35,065 bases of DNA, taken from NCBI GenBank assembly GCA_944377745.1, contig CALWFV010000039.1:1-35065 (forward strand). The letters are read 5' to 3'. Under the pieces are notes generated by a model, which was not told the DNA's origin, searched no databases, and worked only from the letters and a program-made list of their open reading frames with translations. The first letter of the stretch is position 1; the number at the start of each line of letters is the position of its first letter. The translations under genes and the position numbers were made by a program. This DNA is from an uncultured Mediterraneibacter sp. (lineage in GTDB: Bacteria; Bacillota; Clostridia; Lachnospirales; Lachnospiraceae). This document shows, piece after piece, positions 2,105 through 29,538 of this stretch.

Positions 2105-5100
2105 ATGAAGGGATTAAAGACAAGGCTGGGAGCCCTGGTACTGTCAGCGGCGCTTGTGCTGACGATGACCCCATCTATGCTGTCGAATGCGGAGGAATCC
2201 AGCGCTCCGCCAGAAAGTGCCGGGCAGATTTCCGGGACAGTGGACAGTGATCAGGTGAAAGAAGGGTCTGAGGAAACAGAAGGGAAGGACAAGCAGGAAC
2301 CCGGGCAGCAGGGAGCGCAGGAGGATGATAAAAAAGATCCTTCTGGAACCGACGGGACAGAAGAACAGGATGAAAATAATGTGAACGATCCGTCTGATGA
2401 ACAGAATCAGGGTACGGATAATGCGAACAGCCAGCCCGATGGACAGGAAGAAGAAACAGAGGGACAGGAGTCATCCAATGGTCAGTTGAAGGACGGAAAA
2501 GACCAGGATAATAATGAGACAGAGCCGGGTTCTGACAGCCTGGATGGACAGACTCCTTCAGCCAACAGCATTATGCTGCCGGAAGTTCAGCCTAATGCGG
2601 TTATGCAGGCAAGAACCGCAGATATCACAAAGCCTGTGGTTGAGGGCGTGGAGTTCGAGCAGAACGGTCAGACGCTGCAAGAGGGAGATATGCTGACCTT
2701 TAAAGTCAGGGCTTATGATACAGAAAGCGGGATCAGAGAACTCCGTGTTGAACTGAGATATCAGACAGGTGAAAATGAATACGAATTTGTTTCACACCAT
2801 ATTGACGGAACATACGATGAAGCCCAAGGATGTTATGTGGCGGAAGAGGAACTGCAAAACATCGGGACAGGAAGAGTTAATGTTACAGAAGTCTATGCAG
2901 TGGATCAGGCGGGAAATTATGTTGAATATCCGTGTGAGGATCTCTGGTTTCAGACTGAAGCGGAGTCTGATATAGCGTCCGTCTCTGAGATTTCTCTTGA
3001 CTTTAACGGGAAGACGGTCAATGAGGATGATCTTTCATCAGATACGATAATGGGATGGGTAATACTGGATAAAAAACTGGAAGATGAGAGCATTACCCTC
3101 CGGTTTGCAGGAGAAAATGGCAGTGAGTTTACGATAGACTATTACTGGAATGAACAAGAATCCAGATATGATCCGACTTCAGGGGCAGGATATACGACTC
3201 CGTGGAGCAGTGGGGCTGAAACCGTAAAATATGTCCTGAGTGGGATTTATGTGGAGCGGTTTGGCGGACATGTCCAGATTCCAATGGAAGGGATGGAAAA
3301 TTATTACCTGTATATCGAGTTTAATGAGCCGACAGAAAAAGCACTCCCGCAGATCACATCTGTAGAACTGGATAAAAATGCCCAGACCGTAGAGGTCGGG
3401 GATACAGTCACTCTCACGGTCAAAGTTGATGAGAGTGAGAAAATGCAGGATTATGGAACCGCGCATTTTACGCCGGCAGAGGACATTGATGTTTCTGATC
3501 TGTATGTGGATCTGAATTATGATGAAGCCCAGCAGGCATATGTGGGAACTTTGACTGTTGAAGAGGGAACTTATCCCTGTGAATGGTATCTCGACAACAT
3601 ATCAATTGCGAGAGAAGATTATTCAGCCTGGACAGATCTGGACCGCTCGTTCGAAGATATATATCATACATATCCGTGGTATTTTAACGTATATAATGAG
3701 GATACGTTTGTAACGTCGGCAAAAAACCTGAGTATATCATTTTACAGGCAGGACGGATCCGGAGCCTGGACTCCGGTTTCTCATATACAGAAAGAAAATG
3801 TCCCCAGAAGATTTACGCTGAAGGAGCTGGGAGTAAACCTGCCGGAAATGTCTTCTGAAATTGACGGGGTATCACAGAACGGCTGGGAGGATCAGTCGGG
3901 AAATCCGGTCACAGAGGATACCGTGCTTTTGAATAACAGTTATATCGGCATCTACGCGTCCTATGATAAAAACATGGTGAAAACCTGGTATCAATATCTC
4001 TCTGACGACGGGACAGTCAAAAATGAGAGCCGCATGATCGAGATGGGGGCAGACGCCACGTATGGAGAATACTGCAAGAAAGCAGAAGAATATGTACCCG
4101 CAGATATGACGCGGGAATACGGGTTCACAGGCTGGGAAACCACGTCGTCGATGTATGAAGATTCGGATTCCCTGGAGGAACATTTCTACGGAAGTACGTT
4201 CCAGGCAAAATATGACGGCAAGACGGTAGTGGTGCTTAATAAGCAGTATTATGACAGCCAGGGATATTCCGTAGTTGAAACGATCCCGCTCGTACTTGAC
4301 GAGGGGGCAGCGGCAGATGGAGTGATCGATTATATCAACGCGATGGATGTGCCGGAGTTATATCCTGGAATCCGTTTTCTGGAATGGGACGTTAGTCCTT
4401 ATCTGGAGAAGGGGGATCCGCTTGAAAATTTCCAGTGGGTCAGGGCTTACAGTCTGTATGAAAACTGTCTGATCCGATATGAGATTTATGAAGACAAAGT
4501 CAGTGACTCAAGACCGGATCTTCTCGTATGCCAGGTGGCTGAGCAGGGGGAGACGGTGAATGTACCGGACTCCTTTGGAGACTTTTCTAGTGTGGAATGG
4601 CTTAATATGCCTGGTGATGGAGAGAGCTTTGTAGCCAGAGGATCCGTCTGGACGATTACCGGAGTCGGAAGCCGGAACGGAGAGACTGTCACACAGCCTG
4701 AAACGCCTGAAAATCCGAATGACCCGGCAAAACTTTCCGAGGAGACGATCAATTATGTCGTAGAGAGGATCAATTCTGCGGCAGAAGGCAGCAGTGTGAT
4801 CGTGGATATGGGAAATGCGACGGTGGTTCCCAAAGATATCCTTGAAACCGCAAAGGGCAAAGACATAGATGTCGTGCTCAATATGGGCGGCTACACATGG
4901 ACGATCAACGGAAAAGATATCTTTTCAGAAAACCTGAAGGATATTGACCTGAAAGTCACCCTGGATACGGATAACATTCCAGGCAGTATTATCCAGGCGC
5001 TCGCGGGAGACAACCCGGCGAAGCAGCTTTCTCTGGCGCACAACGGAGATTTTGGATTCCTTGCGACTCTTACCGTTAATGTAGGAGCGGAGAATGCGGG

Positions 5101-6650: not shown

Positions 6651-6679
6651 TTGATTTTATGGAGTCCGGGAGGTATAAT
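6651..6679 (+). promoter_or_regulatory. Promoter of Rpn-family leader, copy 1
   Basis: TTGATT (6651-6656) and TATAAT (6674-6679) are 17 bp apart. The predicted start is A6686, one base before the conserved leader. Copy 2 at 28234-28262 has the same -35, the same spacing and the same distance to its leader, although the spacer bases differ. Confidence 0.75.
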
Positions 6680-6685
6680 TACGGT

Positions 6686-6810
6686 ACATCAAAATCCCGG
6701 ACAGATCAAATTTCTTATAGTTTCAAAGTCCGGAGCGGAAAGCTGTCTTTAGCAGACAGTACATATCTCGACTTTCATGGCGTTTCAGCCGGAGATACCA
6801 CATTTTGATG
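6686..6810 (+). ncRNA. Structured 124-nt leader of the Rpn-family gene, copy 1
   Basis: The conserved block runs 6687-6810, the same length as copy 2. Its ends pair: CATCAAAAT with ATTTTGATG, 9 bp. Inside, counting from the first C, CCGGAC pairs with GTCCGG (11-16 with 42-47), CTGTCT with AGACAG (57-62 with 68-73), TATCTC with GAGATA (78-83 with 106-111), and GGC with GCC (93-95 with 102-104). Nine bases differ between copies and only one falls in a helix, changing U-A to U-G. A 31-base spacer with the ribosome site follows. It may be a cis-regulatory RNA or a processed small RNA. The same stretch is also open in one frame, discussed under findings. Confidence 0.6.
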
Positions 6811-6841
6811 AAGAAAAAATTTATAAAGGGAGGAACTGCCT

Positions 6842-7740
6842 ATGGGAAAAGCAGACATTGCGGTCAAAAACTGGCTGGGCGACAAAGAAAGATTTGCAGA
6901 CCTGTTCAATGGGACTGTATTCGGAGGAAAGCAGGTGGTGCTGCCGGAGAATCTGGAAGACATGGACCGGGAAACAGATATTATCCTTACAGATAAGGAA
7001 GGAAAGGAACGGGGCGTTTAGAGGTTCAGAGATATCGTGAAAAAATGGGAGGACATGCAAAAGAAGGAGATAAAGAGAAAACAGGGAGCAGTCTGAGTCA
7101 GGAAGAATATCTGTCCCGTTTCCGGAAAGACGACCGAATCTTTCCGGTCATCACTCTTGTGTTTTATTATGATCTGAAAGAATGGGATGGAGCAGTGGAA
7201 CTTTATGATATGTTCCAGATAGATCCCTCCTTAAAAGAAACAGAGGTTTTAAAGAGATATATCCCTAATTATCGGATCAATTTGATCGATGCGGGACGTG
7301 TGGCTGATATTACGAGGTTCCACACGGATTTACAACAGGTGTTCGGCATGTTAAAATACAGGGAAGACAAGGAAAATCTTAAAAGCTATATGCTGAAGAA
7401 CCGAGATTATTTCGGACAGGTAGACGTGGAAACGTATCAGGCATTGGGAGTATTTCTGTGTTCTGAGAATAAGCTGAAAGAGATCATAGATCCCGGAGAG
7501 GAGGAACGAATCGATATGTGCAAGGCATTGGATGATATTTATGCAGATGGCGTAAAAGATGGCGAAAGGACAGGTAAGATAGCCGGGAGAAAAGAAGGAA
7601 GGGAGGCTGGAAGAGAAGAGGGACGGGCTTTTATCATCAGCCGGATGCTGAAAAATGGGCTGGAGATGACAGAGATCAAGAAGTACACAGAGGCGACGGA
7701 TCAGGAGATTGAGAAAGTGAAGAAGTCTCTGAACGTATAG
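6842..7740 (+). pseudogene. Decayed Rpn-family (PD-(D/E)XK) nuclease/transposase-like gene, copy 1
   Basis: The reading frame begins MGKADIAVKNW with a GGGAGGA ribosome site, matching copy 2 at 28434. At 7019-7021 the Gln codon of copy 2 (RGVQRY) is a TAG stop. After VKKW the gene lacks roughly 130 bases that in copy 2 encode the core LLAVLACEIQDKTHYAMPV, including the Glu-x-Gln pair expected in the nuclease active site. The frame then shifts and continues in the frame open from 7045 as EEYLSRFRKDDRI to the natural end at 7740. The 3' half is well conserved and could be translated from the ATG at 7045 as a 231-residue fragment, but it would have no catalytic core. Some stretches, for example around 7330, are nearly identical to copy 2. 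The leader and promoter remain intact. Confidence 0.85.
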
Positions 7741-7862: not shown

Positions 7863-8056
7863 GATGTTGGGGTCAAAAGCCCCCAACTACGATGCCTACG
7901 GATTGTTCCGTGCTACGCACTCCCACAATCCTACCCAATATTCGCATATCGTGGGATATACATCCCACTTTTATGCTCATATTGGGGCGGGTCCCAAAGC
8001 CTTTCACCCACTTATGAGCAAGATCATGTGGGCTTACACCTTTTGACCCTGGCATC
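7863..8056. mobile_element. 194-bp MITE-like element with 7-bp target duplication
   Basis: The ends form an imperfect 17-bp terminal inverted repeat: GATGTTGGGGTCAAAAG (7863-7879) against CTTTTGACCCTGGCATC (8040-8056), three mismatches. Identical 7-bp direct repeats ATAGAAT flank it at 7856-7862 and 8057-8063. The inside holds hairpins such as GTGGGAT/ATCCCAC (7951-7957 with 7962-7968) and TTGGGG/CCCCAA near the left end. No transposase gene is present; a 69-residue frame across it looks spurious. It probably moved in trans by a full-size relative elsewhere in the genome. It sits in the promoter of the GH43-like gene. Confidence 0.8.
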
Positions 8057-8142
8057 ATAGAATACATTCAGAAAGAAAACGGCAGCAGTTTACACTCGGA
8101 GAAGAACGTTACTTTAAAGAATGGAAATGAGGAGGTATCAGA

Positions 8143-28171: not shown

Positions 28172-28233
28172 GTCTGGAGTAAAAAGGGAACTTCTTGAAT
28201 TTGAGAATGGAAAGTGGCAGAGCGTAAAATCTA

Positions 28234-28262
28234 TTGATTTTAAAGTTCACAGGTGCTATGAT
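28234..28262 (+). promoter_or_regulatory. Promoter of Rpn-family leader, copy 2
   Basis: TTGATT (28234-28239) and TATGAT (28257-28262) are 17 bp apart, with a predicted start at A28269, one base before the leader. The same -35, spacing and start position occur in copy 1. The 60 bases between the previous terminator and this promoter show nothing else. Confidence 0.75.
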
Positions 28263-28268
28263 AACATC

Positions 28269-28393
28269 ACATCAAAATCCCGGACGGATCAGATTTCTTA
28301 CAGTTTCATAGTCCGGAGCGGAAAACTGTCTTTAGCAGACGGCACATATCTCGATTTTCATGGCGTTTCAGCCGGAGATACCAAATTTTGATG
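28269..28393 (+). ncRNA. Structured 124-nt leader of the Rpn-family gene, copy 2
   Basis: The block 28270-28393 matches copy 1 with nine substitutions and no length change. The end helix CATCAAAAT/ATTTTGATG and helices CCGGAC/GTCCGG, TATCTC/GAGATA and GGC/GCC are unchanged; the stem CTGTCT/AGACGG keeps pairing through a U-G pair. A 40-base spacer with GAGGAGG precedes the start codon. The matching of the transcription start with the helix edge, in both copies, favours a functional RNA over a chance palindrome. Confidence 0.6.
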
Positions 28394-28433
28394 AAAACTT
28401 TTATAAATATTGAGTACAGAGGAGGAACTGCCT

Positions 28434-29459
28434 ATGGGAAAAGCAGACATTGCAGTTAAAAACTGGCTGAACGACAGGGAAAGATTCGCAGACCTGTTCA
28501 ACGGAACGGTATTCGGAGGAAAGCAGGTGGTGCTGCCGGAAGAACTGGAGGATATGGACAGAGAGACGGATATTATCATCACGGACAAAGGTGGGAAGGA
28601 ACGCGGCGTTCAGCGCTACAGGGACCTTGTGAAACGCTGGAATCATGAGATCCTGCTCGCTGTTCTTGCATGCGAGATTCAGGATAAGACCCATTACGCC
28701 ATGCCGGTGCGGAATATGCTCCAGGACAGTCTTACATATACGGATCAGATCCGAAGCCTGTGGAGAAAACGCGGATATGGGAGAAACTCTTCAAACGCGA
28801 AAGGTCAGAAGAAAAAGGAGAATGGACAGGGGATGACAAGACATCTGAGTGCGGAAGAGTATCTGTCCCGGTTCCGAAAAGAAGACAGGATCTATCCGGT
28901 GATCACGCTGGTGTTTTACTATGATGTGAAGAAGTGGGACGGAGCAGTGGAGCTTTATGACATGTTCCGGCTTGACGCTTCGATGAAGAAGGAAATCTTG
29001 ATAAAGGATTATCTTCTGAACTATAAGATCAATCTGCTGGATGCGGGTAATGTGGAAGATGTGAGCTGGTTCCGGACGGATTTACAACAGGTGTTCGGCA
29101 TGTTAAAATACAGAGGAGAGAAAGAAAAACTGCAGAGATATATGCAGGAGAACCGAGACTATTTCGGACAGGTCGATGTGGAGACGTATCAGGCTCTGGG
29201 CGCGTTTCTGCATTCAGGGAAGAAATTAAAAGAGGTTGTGGATTCCGGGGAGGAGGAACAGATTGATATGTGTAAGGCGTTGGATGATATTTATGCGGAT
29301 GGTGTAAAGGATGGCGAAAAGGCCGGAAGGACTCAGGAAAAACTTATTATTATCACGAGGATGATAAAAGAAGGAATGTCTGCTTCGGTGATCAGGAAGT
29401 GCACTGAGGCGACGGATCAGGAGATCGAGCAGGCTAGGAATGAGATGAAAAGTAAGTAA
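28434..29459 (+). CDS. Rpn-family / PD-(D/E)XK nuclease, transposase-like protein, copy 2 (intact)
   Basis: The 341-residue protein is a member of the Rpn-like PD-(D/E)XK family, often labelled putative transposase in clostridial genomes; Rpn proteins are RecA-independent recombination-promoting nucleases. Expected catalytic parts are the Glu-Thr-Asp in REETDII-like context (DRETDIIITDK, about residues 41-51) and Glu-Ile-Gln in LACEIQDKTHYAMPV (about 76-90). A second domain (EEYLSRFRKEDRIYPVITLVFYYD) is also a family trait. The C-terminus is charged and helical. The start follows GAGGAGG and begins MGKADIAVKNW; a TTG 24 bases upstream is less likely. It is separate from the glycoside operon by terminators on both sides. 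Copy 1 at 6842 is broken. Confidence 0.85.
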   Translation: MGKADIAVKNWLNDRERFADLFNGTVFGGKQVVLPEELEDMDRETDIIITDKGGKERGVQRYRDLVKRWNHEILLAVLACEIQDKTHYAMPVRNMLQDSLTYTDQIRSLWRKRGYGRNSSNAKGQKKKENGQGMTRHLSAEEYLSRFRKEDRIYPVITLVFYYDVKKWDGAVELYDMFRLDASMKKEILIKDYLLNYKINLLDAGNVEDVSWFRTDLQQVFGMLKYRGEKEKLQRYMQENRDYFGQVDVETYQALGAFLHSGKKLKEVVDSGEEEQIDMCKALDDIYADGVKDGEKAGRTQEKLIIITRMIKEGMSASVIRKCTEATDQEIEQARNEMKSK

Positions 29460-29465
29460 TAGATG

Positions 29466-29492
29466 AAAAAGGAGGCTGAATACCTCCTTTTT
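29466..29492 (+). terminator. Intrinsic terminator after Rpn copy 2
   Basis: AAAAAGGAGG (29466-29475) pairs perfectly with CCTCCTTTTT (29483-29492) over a 7-base loop, six bases past the stop. Confidence 0.9.
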
Positions 29493-29538
29493 CAGATGCT
29501 TATCCGGCAGGTAAAACAGATGGAAGGAAATGGGCAGG

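Follow-up and report, generated by a model that had tools for sequence, protein, structure and literature searches.

A structured RNA leader, probably cis-acting, upstream of Rpn-type nuclease genes and surface-protein genes in Lachnospiraceae

Introduction

At two loci on a contig of an uncultured Mediterraneibacter sp. (GCA_944377745.1, CALWFV010000039.1; the window, i.e., the whole analyzed stretch of 35,065 nt), an Rpn-type gene or its remains is preceded by nearly the same block of DNA, which begins at a predicted transcription start. Is this block a structured RNA, and does it act on the mRNA that it heads or with the nuclease encoded behind it? In the literature, Rpn genes are described as coding for toxic nucleases with a role against phages, and the genomes analyzed here carry as many as six or more copies. 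A leader that heads genes of two Rpn subfamilies as well as Uma2 and surface genes would offer a handle on how Rpn genes are checked, and the signal would be identified through the ligand or protein that the leader binds.

Two leader copies in the window

The first leader copy, here called W28, is located at 28269..28394 on the + strand (126 nt), its base 1 being the predicted transcription start. The second, W6, is located at 6686..6811 (+ strand, 126 nt). Both could be aligned without gaps over 127 nt each (28269-28395 and 6686-6812) with nine substitutions, and both aligned blocks begin with the predicted +1 A. This confirms the original prediction of two blocks of equal length with nine differences behind a start A. 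The promoter geometry that it had described is present as well. The W28 promoter (28234..28262, + strand), of the sigma-70 type like that of W6, consists of the −35 hexamer TTGATT (28234-28239), a spacer of 17 nt and the −10 hexamer TATGAT (28257-28262), with 9 of 12 matches. The W6 promoter (6651..6679, + strand), identified in the sequence, consists of TTGATT, 17 nt and TATAAT (6674-6679). The −10 hexamer ends 6 nt ahead of the A in both cases. At W28, another promoter-like site (28201-28230) was slightly better, with 10 matches of 12 compared to 9.

In the predicted fold, a junction is surrounded by P1, P2 (which has a large loop), P3, and a P4 helix that carries P5 at its top. In W28 (all on the + strand), the 5′ strand of P1 (28270..28278) pairs with its 3′ strand (28385..28393), i.e., bases 2-10 with 117-125, as determined from folding and from relatives, in which compensatory changes were found. 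The P2 hairpin (28280..28316; 28280-28285 with 28311-28316) carries a conserved UUC in its loop. The P3 hairpin (28326..28342; 28326-28331 with 28337-28342) is the most variable helix, shows strong covariation and is absent in the shortest relatives. The P4/P5 arm (28347..28380) is formed by P4 (28347-28352 with 28375-28380) and P5 (28361-28364 with 28371-28374); the UCA that precedes P5 and the UUC of its loop are conserved. The pairing of the 5′ end of the transcript with the end of the block and the internal helices, both part of the original prediction, were thereby recovered for W28 and W6 alike.

W28 is followed by the Shine-Dalgarno sequence AGGAGG (28420..28425, + strand, identified in the sequence) of an Rpn-A gene of 341 aa (28434..29459, + strand), which appears to encode a divergent Transposase_31/Rpn-family nuclease. 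Behind W6 there is an Rpn-A pseudogene (6842..7740, + strand) with an in-frame stop and an internal deletion. The start codon behind both copies opens MGKADIAVKNW..., and the gene is intact only behind W28. A terminator-like hairpin was annotated at 29464..29494 on the + strand; the terminator scan lists it on the − strand.

A Clostridiales-1 RNA (RF01699, 138.7 bits) is located directly behind the W6 pseudogene (7890-8057, − strand), and a second one was observed in one of the six Rpn-A neighborhoods of genome G018 (L101 2525-2692).

Distribution of the leader

A blastn search of the window's own genome revealed five copies, all ahead of Rpn-A genes or their remains. A sixth copy, C49, ahead of an Rpn-B gene, was added by the final covariance model R3, which was built from 38 sequences. 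Among 58 genomes of the genus, a DNA search found a match in 12, and R3 found 52 matches in 24. The model separates the leader cleanly within the genus, with no matches between E = 2.3e-4 and the limit of 0.05.

Copies in other genera of the family are rarer and divergent. The earlier model R2 gave matches in at least 11 of 397 genomes of the family sample; three of these matches (G271, G201 and G437) are weak and are not counted as shown. In the order sample, R3 gave matches in at least 3 of 392 genomes, all of the window's own family. Both searches scored up to nine candidates per genome, which limits their sensitivity beyond the genus. The covariance-model search of Lachnospiraceae proposed with the original prediction thus yielded further copies, mostly ahead of Rpn-type genes.

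A pattern scan of genome contigs detected 23 stretches, of which 17 were taken as true and 6 were judged to be chance or coding sequence. The copies taken as true are labelled Mediterraneibacter except for one each from Mordavella massiliensis, a Lachnoclostridium sp. and a Lachnospiraceae bacterium; one carrier is the cultured strain M. glycyrrhizinilyticus An427. The leader was not found in viral contigs by the pattern scan, nor in plasmids and phages by blastn.

Some candidates were set apart. L036 and L037 were judged by eye to be false leaders. Weak, leader-like matches precede a comM-like gene (L180 in G437) and a gene for a large OmpL47-type surface protein (L181 in G201). The match in the comM context (L129/L180) scored 34.7 bits with R2 and 27.8 bits with R3 and is weak, as are L127 and L128/L181. 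Upstream of Rpn-B genes, L188 and L198 (G310) appear by eye to be more divergent relatives of the leader; L198 scored 18.2 bits, below the threshold.

Conserved structure and covariation

Folded alone, W28 is unremarkable (z = −1.41), and the case for a structured RNA therefore rests on the relatives. The R3 alignment comprises 61 leaders (60 distinct; L127, L180 and L181 weak). Because it was fitted to the structure, it favors the structure, and the shuffles used for comparison ignore kinship. With this reading, 92.7% of the 1540 pair cells of the 60 distinct leaders are standard pairs, compared to 76.6% after shuffling, and 31-54% of the cells pair when the partner is slid by 1-3 columns. 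Two-sided changes were found in 24 of 27 base pairs (249 cells), and none of 500 shuffles of this structure-fitted alignment reached any of the five covariation measures.

A structure-blind MAFFT alignment of 19 sequences, with P3 left out, gave 97.3% pairing cells compared to 96.0% shuffled and 26-52% slid. Two-sided changes were restricted to two pairs, both in P2, and were not above the shuffled level (251 of 500 shuffles as high). P1, P4 and P5 are nearly invariant in this alignment, so that only P2 is informative there. A mutual-information scan of 58 rows of the structure-fitted alignment (effective number 39 at 85% identity) ranked ten column pairs at the top, all of which are predicted pairs of P2 and P3.

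In distant members, P1 varies by compensation (C-G to U-A or A-U), and P5 changes from GGC/GCC to GAC/GUC and UGC/GCA. Unpaired residues with a weighted conservation of at least 80% include the UCA before P5 and the UUC of the P5 and P2 loops. The expectation that helices are kept by compensatory change in relatives is borne out by the structure-fitted alignment; the structure-blind alignment is consistent with it but weak. Judged from these alignments, the leader is a real structured RNA family with conserved helices and compensatory changes.

The aligned leaders are 88-140 nt long, and some of the short ones lack P3 and part of P4. The indels break every reading frame, and the leader is therefore not coding. 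This also disposes of a coding block in the W28 frame M-A-F-Q-P-E-I-P, which by eye is broken in relatives by a P5 loop of 6 or 7 nt and by other indels. The possibility that J4/5 (UUCAU) pairs instead with the P1 end was rejected by eye, as this pairing is not kept in relatives with GAUCA ends. Pseudoknots were rejected as well, since non-helical column pairs high in the mutual-information list mostly do not pair. In two of the six copies of G018 (L100 1064-1249 and L101 929-1114), 77 extra nt were observed within the leader near the P3 site, with the flanks kept.

Predicted transcription start

The leader lies between the predicted transcription start and the start codon of its gene. In 48 of the 61 leaders, which are related rows and not 48 independent events, a hexamer matching TATAAT in four or more positions has its end exactly 6 nt ahead of base 1. 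At any other of 30 distances, a −10-like box was found in at most 14 of 61. The fixed distance suggests that transcription most likely starts at base 1, so that P1 would begin at +2. In this respect, the idea of a structured RNA placed at the very 5′ end of the predicted transcript was sustained beyond the two copies of the window.

Genes behind the leader

The gene neighbors were counted for 67 leaders, i.e., the 61 of alignment A8 (weak matches included) and six further copies; all 52 genus matches are among them. Rpn-A genes or remnants follow 45 leaders, Rpn-B genes or remnants 10 and a Uma2 gene one. A sortase-pilus operon follows three and a predicted secreted protein two. The remaining six comprise a degenerate copy ahead of cysK, one copy with no gene left, one at a contig end and the three weak matches. 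L014 and two stubs ahead of recA were assigned to Rpn-A by eye, and the Rpn-B copy G212:C25, found later, is outside the count.

The Pfam family PF04754 (Transposase_31) was detected with 20.7 bits in the W28 protein, slightly below the cut-off of 21, and with 23.9 bits in the fragment behind W6. Rpn-B stretches reached 49.7-84.7 bits for Transposase_31, and the Uma2 gene 74.1 bits for Uma2. A profile comparison of Rpn-A and Rpn-B resulted in a probability of 77%, with the E-x-Q in register and an hhalign identity of 16%. No match to PDB sequences was found for the Rpn-A protein at E up to 1, and its AlphaFold model (mean pLDDT 60.9) was too poor to use. By these comparisons, the genes behind most leaders appear to belong to or border on the Rpn/Transposase_31 family. 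The Uma2 gene (L182, G409:C4) also matches the PADLOC candidate defense family PDC-S03 (6e-30, first 137 residues).

The start codon of intact Rpn-A genes is located 24-47 bases after the leader, with one exception of 75 bases (L017). The distance is 29 bases for a secreted-protein gene and 41 for Uma2. For Rpn-B it is about 57-209 nt, the starts being uncertain; Rpn-B is perhaps transcribed from a second promoter, seen by eye, so that the leader could be a separate RNA there.

In the reverse direction, 30 Rpn-A loci were fetched, 25 of which had the N-terminus and upstream DNA. The leader was identified in 21 of these 25 (the window's own copy included); two of the four loci without it are only 34-37% identical to the query. 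Rpn-B homologs occur in 13 genomes, in which 23 of 24 loci were scanned. Three of these genomes have the leader, at nine loci. In the other ten, some of whose loci are cut near contig ends, no clear match was found; there were two weak matches of 18-20 bits.

Genome G041 has the leader before three Rpn-A genes, a pilus operon and a secreted protein. Pilus leaders were found in three genomes (G041, G052 and G005) and secreted-protein leaders in two (G041 and G052). The G041 operon was identified by Pfam (SpaA, TED, LPXTG, pilin backbone and two sortases), those of G052 and G005 by similarity and the G005 tip protein also by Pfam; the name of the secreted protein rests on visual inspection of its N-terminus. 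All three orthologous pilus operons have the leader, and it was not found at the loci of four distant SpaA genes (the L210 stretch lacking the gene start).

The pilus leaders of G041 and G052 are only 60-63% identical to that of G005 (63% for G041), and all match the model over its full length. In the tree, the pilus and secreted-protein leaders of G041 and G052 form one clade (96/96), which looks like the spread of one element to several genes. The G041 and G005 pilus leaders stand apart, and at least two changes are forced for the pilus label, in a tree that leaves 25 of its 54 inner branches open and has L024 on a long branch. Since the G041 and G005 pilus leaders are diverged and ungrouped, the leader probably reached surface genes by more than one transfer and was kept there with no Rpn gene immediately downstream.

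The leader is strongly, yet not exclusively, associated with Rpn-type nucleases. The proposed link to putative PD-(D/E)XK-type genes holds for most leaders (Rpn-A, Rpn-B and one Uma2), and fails as an exclusive rule because of the pilus and secreted-protein genes.

Two further arrangements were observed. In L166 and L167 (G013 and G028), Rpn-A is cut to an N-terminal stub, the leader is kept and recA starts 172 bases after it; in G035 and G006, Rpn-A lies between the leader and recA. L106 and L108 (G041 and G052) have a similar small ORF of 19 codons (MEKHIC...) with a Shine-Dalgarno sequence between the leader and the pilus operon.

Comparison with known RNAs and Rpn systems

A search of the whole window against Rfam 15 resulted only in a tRNA and Clostridiales-1, both elsewhere than the leader. 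Among 20 loci, of which most contain leaders, none of the leaders was matched at the gathering score, and the W28 region gave only two chance snoRNA matches at E up to 10. No description of the leader was found among the literature matches listed, which were open-licence papers. The original statement that no such RNA was known thus agrees with these searches, and the leader is apparently a structured RNA family without prior description. It adds to the known RNAs a covarying family missing from Rfam 15, together with a covariance model.

Orphan RNA motifs known from genome comparisons are likewise structured and covarying, many of them lie upstream of genes, and their ligand or factor is often unknown. 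One collection of this kind comprises 104 motifs (PMC2864571). The leader differs in having no Rfam 15 match and in its association with Rpn nucleases and pili, which was not met among the literature matches listed.

Riboswitches, e.g., those for c-di-GMP, control adhesins and pili. Like the c-di-GMP riboswitches, the leader is located at the 5′ end of several transcription units per genome, with surface genes among its targets; unlike them, it has no Rfam match and no expression platform was found.

The known Rpn systems (YhgA-like, Transposase_31; PMC5350276, PMC10327210) appear to be of the same family as, or to border on, the genes behind most leaders. The words leader and UTR are absent from the main text of PMC10327210, as are leader and untranslated from that of PMC5350276.

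Search for an expression platform

No leader segment was found to pair consistently with the Shine-Dalgarno sequence in 33 leaders. Native pairs of leader and start region were not better matched than shuffled ones in 29 cluster representatives (11 segments, best P = 0.04), and three segments were worse than 95% of the shuffles. The median openness of the Shine-Dalgarno sequence was 0.55 with the leader compared to 0.72 without it. Sequestration of the Shine-Dalgarno sequence or start codon by the P2 loop or P5 was rejected, as there is no common partner segment and the permutation test was negative. An association of leader CAUGGC with GCCUAUG in the start region (7 of 12 versus 2 of 17, P = 0.014) is post hoc, is contradicted by the energy test of the segment and was rejected as well.

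In the energy model with the gene start included, P1 of W28 reached only 0.05, and the J4/5-P5 side preferred the start region as its partner. Over 37 leaders, including three pilus rows with wrong start codons, P1 had a median of 0.55. No + strand terminator was found between leader and gene in W28, the one copy scanned. Together with the short distance to the start codon in most Rpn-A loci, this is as expected of an mRNA leader. Since no expression platform was found, what the leader does beyond being structured is something that we infer.

Possible function of the leader

Its structure, start-site fit and gene neighbors are supported by the computations. On predicted starts, the leader most likely acts in cis as an mRNA leader, and we consider it probable that it represents a new family of such cis-acting structured elements. 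Transcription from base 1 would make bases 2-10 available for P1 pairing with the opposite end of the element. P1 would close the junction, and the conserved single-stranded UCA and the two UUC stretches would provide a binding site, either for a protein or for a small ligand. Folding or binding may then set the stability or translation of the downstream mRNA, which encodes an Rpn-type nuclease in most cases and a pilus or secreted protein in some.

A special case of this is a new riboswitch class, with the junction binding a small molecule, perhaps a second messenger, to which nuclease and surface-protein expression would be coupled. The same structure before unrelated genes of one genome (G041) and the conserved unpaired residues of the P4/P5 arm and the P2 loop are in line with it. 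However, neither a terminator (W28 only) nor a Shine-Dalgarno switch was found, no metabolic theme points to a ligand, and some short members are without P3 and part of P4, which leaves a riboswitch a tentative possibility. Equally tentatively, a ligand- or signal-responsive RNA might switch not only phage-defense-type nucleases (Uma2 and the two Rpn subfamilies) in Lachnospiraceae but, along with them, sortase pili and a secreted protein; one signal would then set both nuclease toxicity and the cell surface. Less is asked of the RNA if P1, which starts at the predicted +2, merely hides the 5′ end from 5′-dependent decay as a passive stabilizer or insulator, from which mRNAs of unrelated genes would profit equally. 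A plain hairpin would suffice for this, and the conserved loop residues and near-invariant P1 sequence would be left unexplained, so that we regard it as unlikely.

Other readings tie the RNA to the nuclease itself. RNAs work with TnpB-like nucleases, and by analogy the leader might be processed out and act as a partner or guide of the Rpn nuclease. Such a role would fit the 55 of 67 leaders that are followed by an Rpn-type gene or its remnant and the one followed by a Uma2 nuclease, as well as the more distant Rpn-B start codons. Yet the presence of the leader before pilus genes speaks against an RNA whose sole role is guiding or binding the nuclease encoded downstream, and favors a cis-acting mRNA leader. 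The original suggestion of such guiding or binding is not upheld, given that pilus operons in three genomes and a secreted-protein gene in two carry the same RNA. Moreover, 4 of 25 Rpn-A loci and 10 of 13 Rpn-B genomes are without a (clear) match, no variable guide-like end was seen, and E. coli RpnA is reported to show little sequence specificity when cutting DNA in vitro (PMC5350276); we therefore rate this role as very unlikely. An Rpn protein could also bind its own leader and so limit a toxic product, pilus and secreted-protein genes being side targets. The strong link to a gene family described as toxic (PMC5350276, PMC10327210) fits autoregulation of this kind, and multi-copy genomes would allow cross-regulation. 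Two Rpn subfamilies as distant as 16% identity and one Uma2 would hardly share RNA recognition, however, which makes it rather unlikely compared to the cis-acting leader in general.

Duplication of the W28 locus

Could the block be conserved as DNA, as the end of a mobile unit? W28 and the copy C23 (G000:C23) are 97.3% identical over exactly 28257-29492, from the −10 box to the terminator-like hairpin, near whose end this common stretch stops. In the relatives G007 and G023, however, a single copy is bordered by the W28 left side and the C23 right side, so that recombination between copies, or an assembly join, explains the sharp-ended duplication, and a mobile unit was rejected. The compensatory changes, which demand pairing within one strand, and the start-site fit also speak for the RNA leader, and conservation at the DNA level is highly improbable. 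In six relatives, a search for the W28 right side yielded nothing, which shows little without a positive control. Just upstream of the C23 leader, a sequence of 76 nt (L095, about 3119-3195) recurs at seven other genome sites, six of them contig ends, and is probably the end of an insertion sequence.
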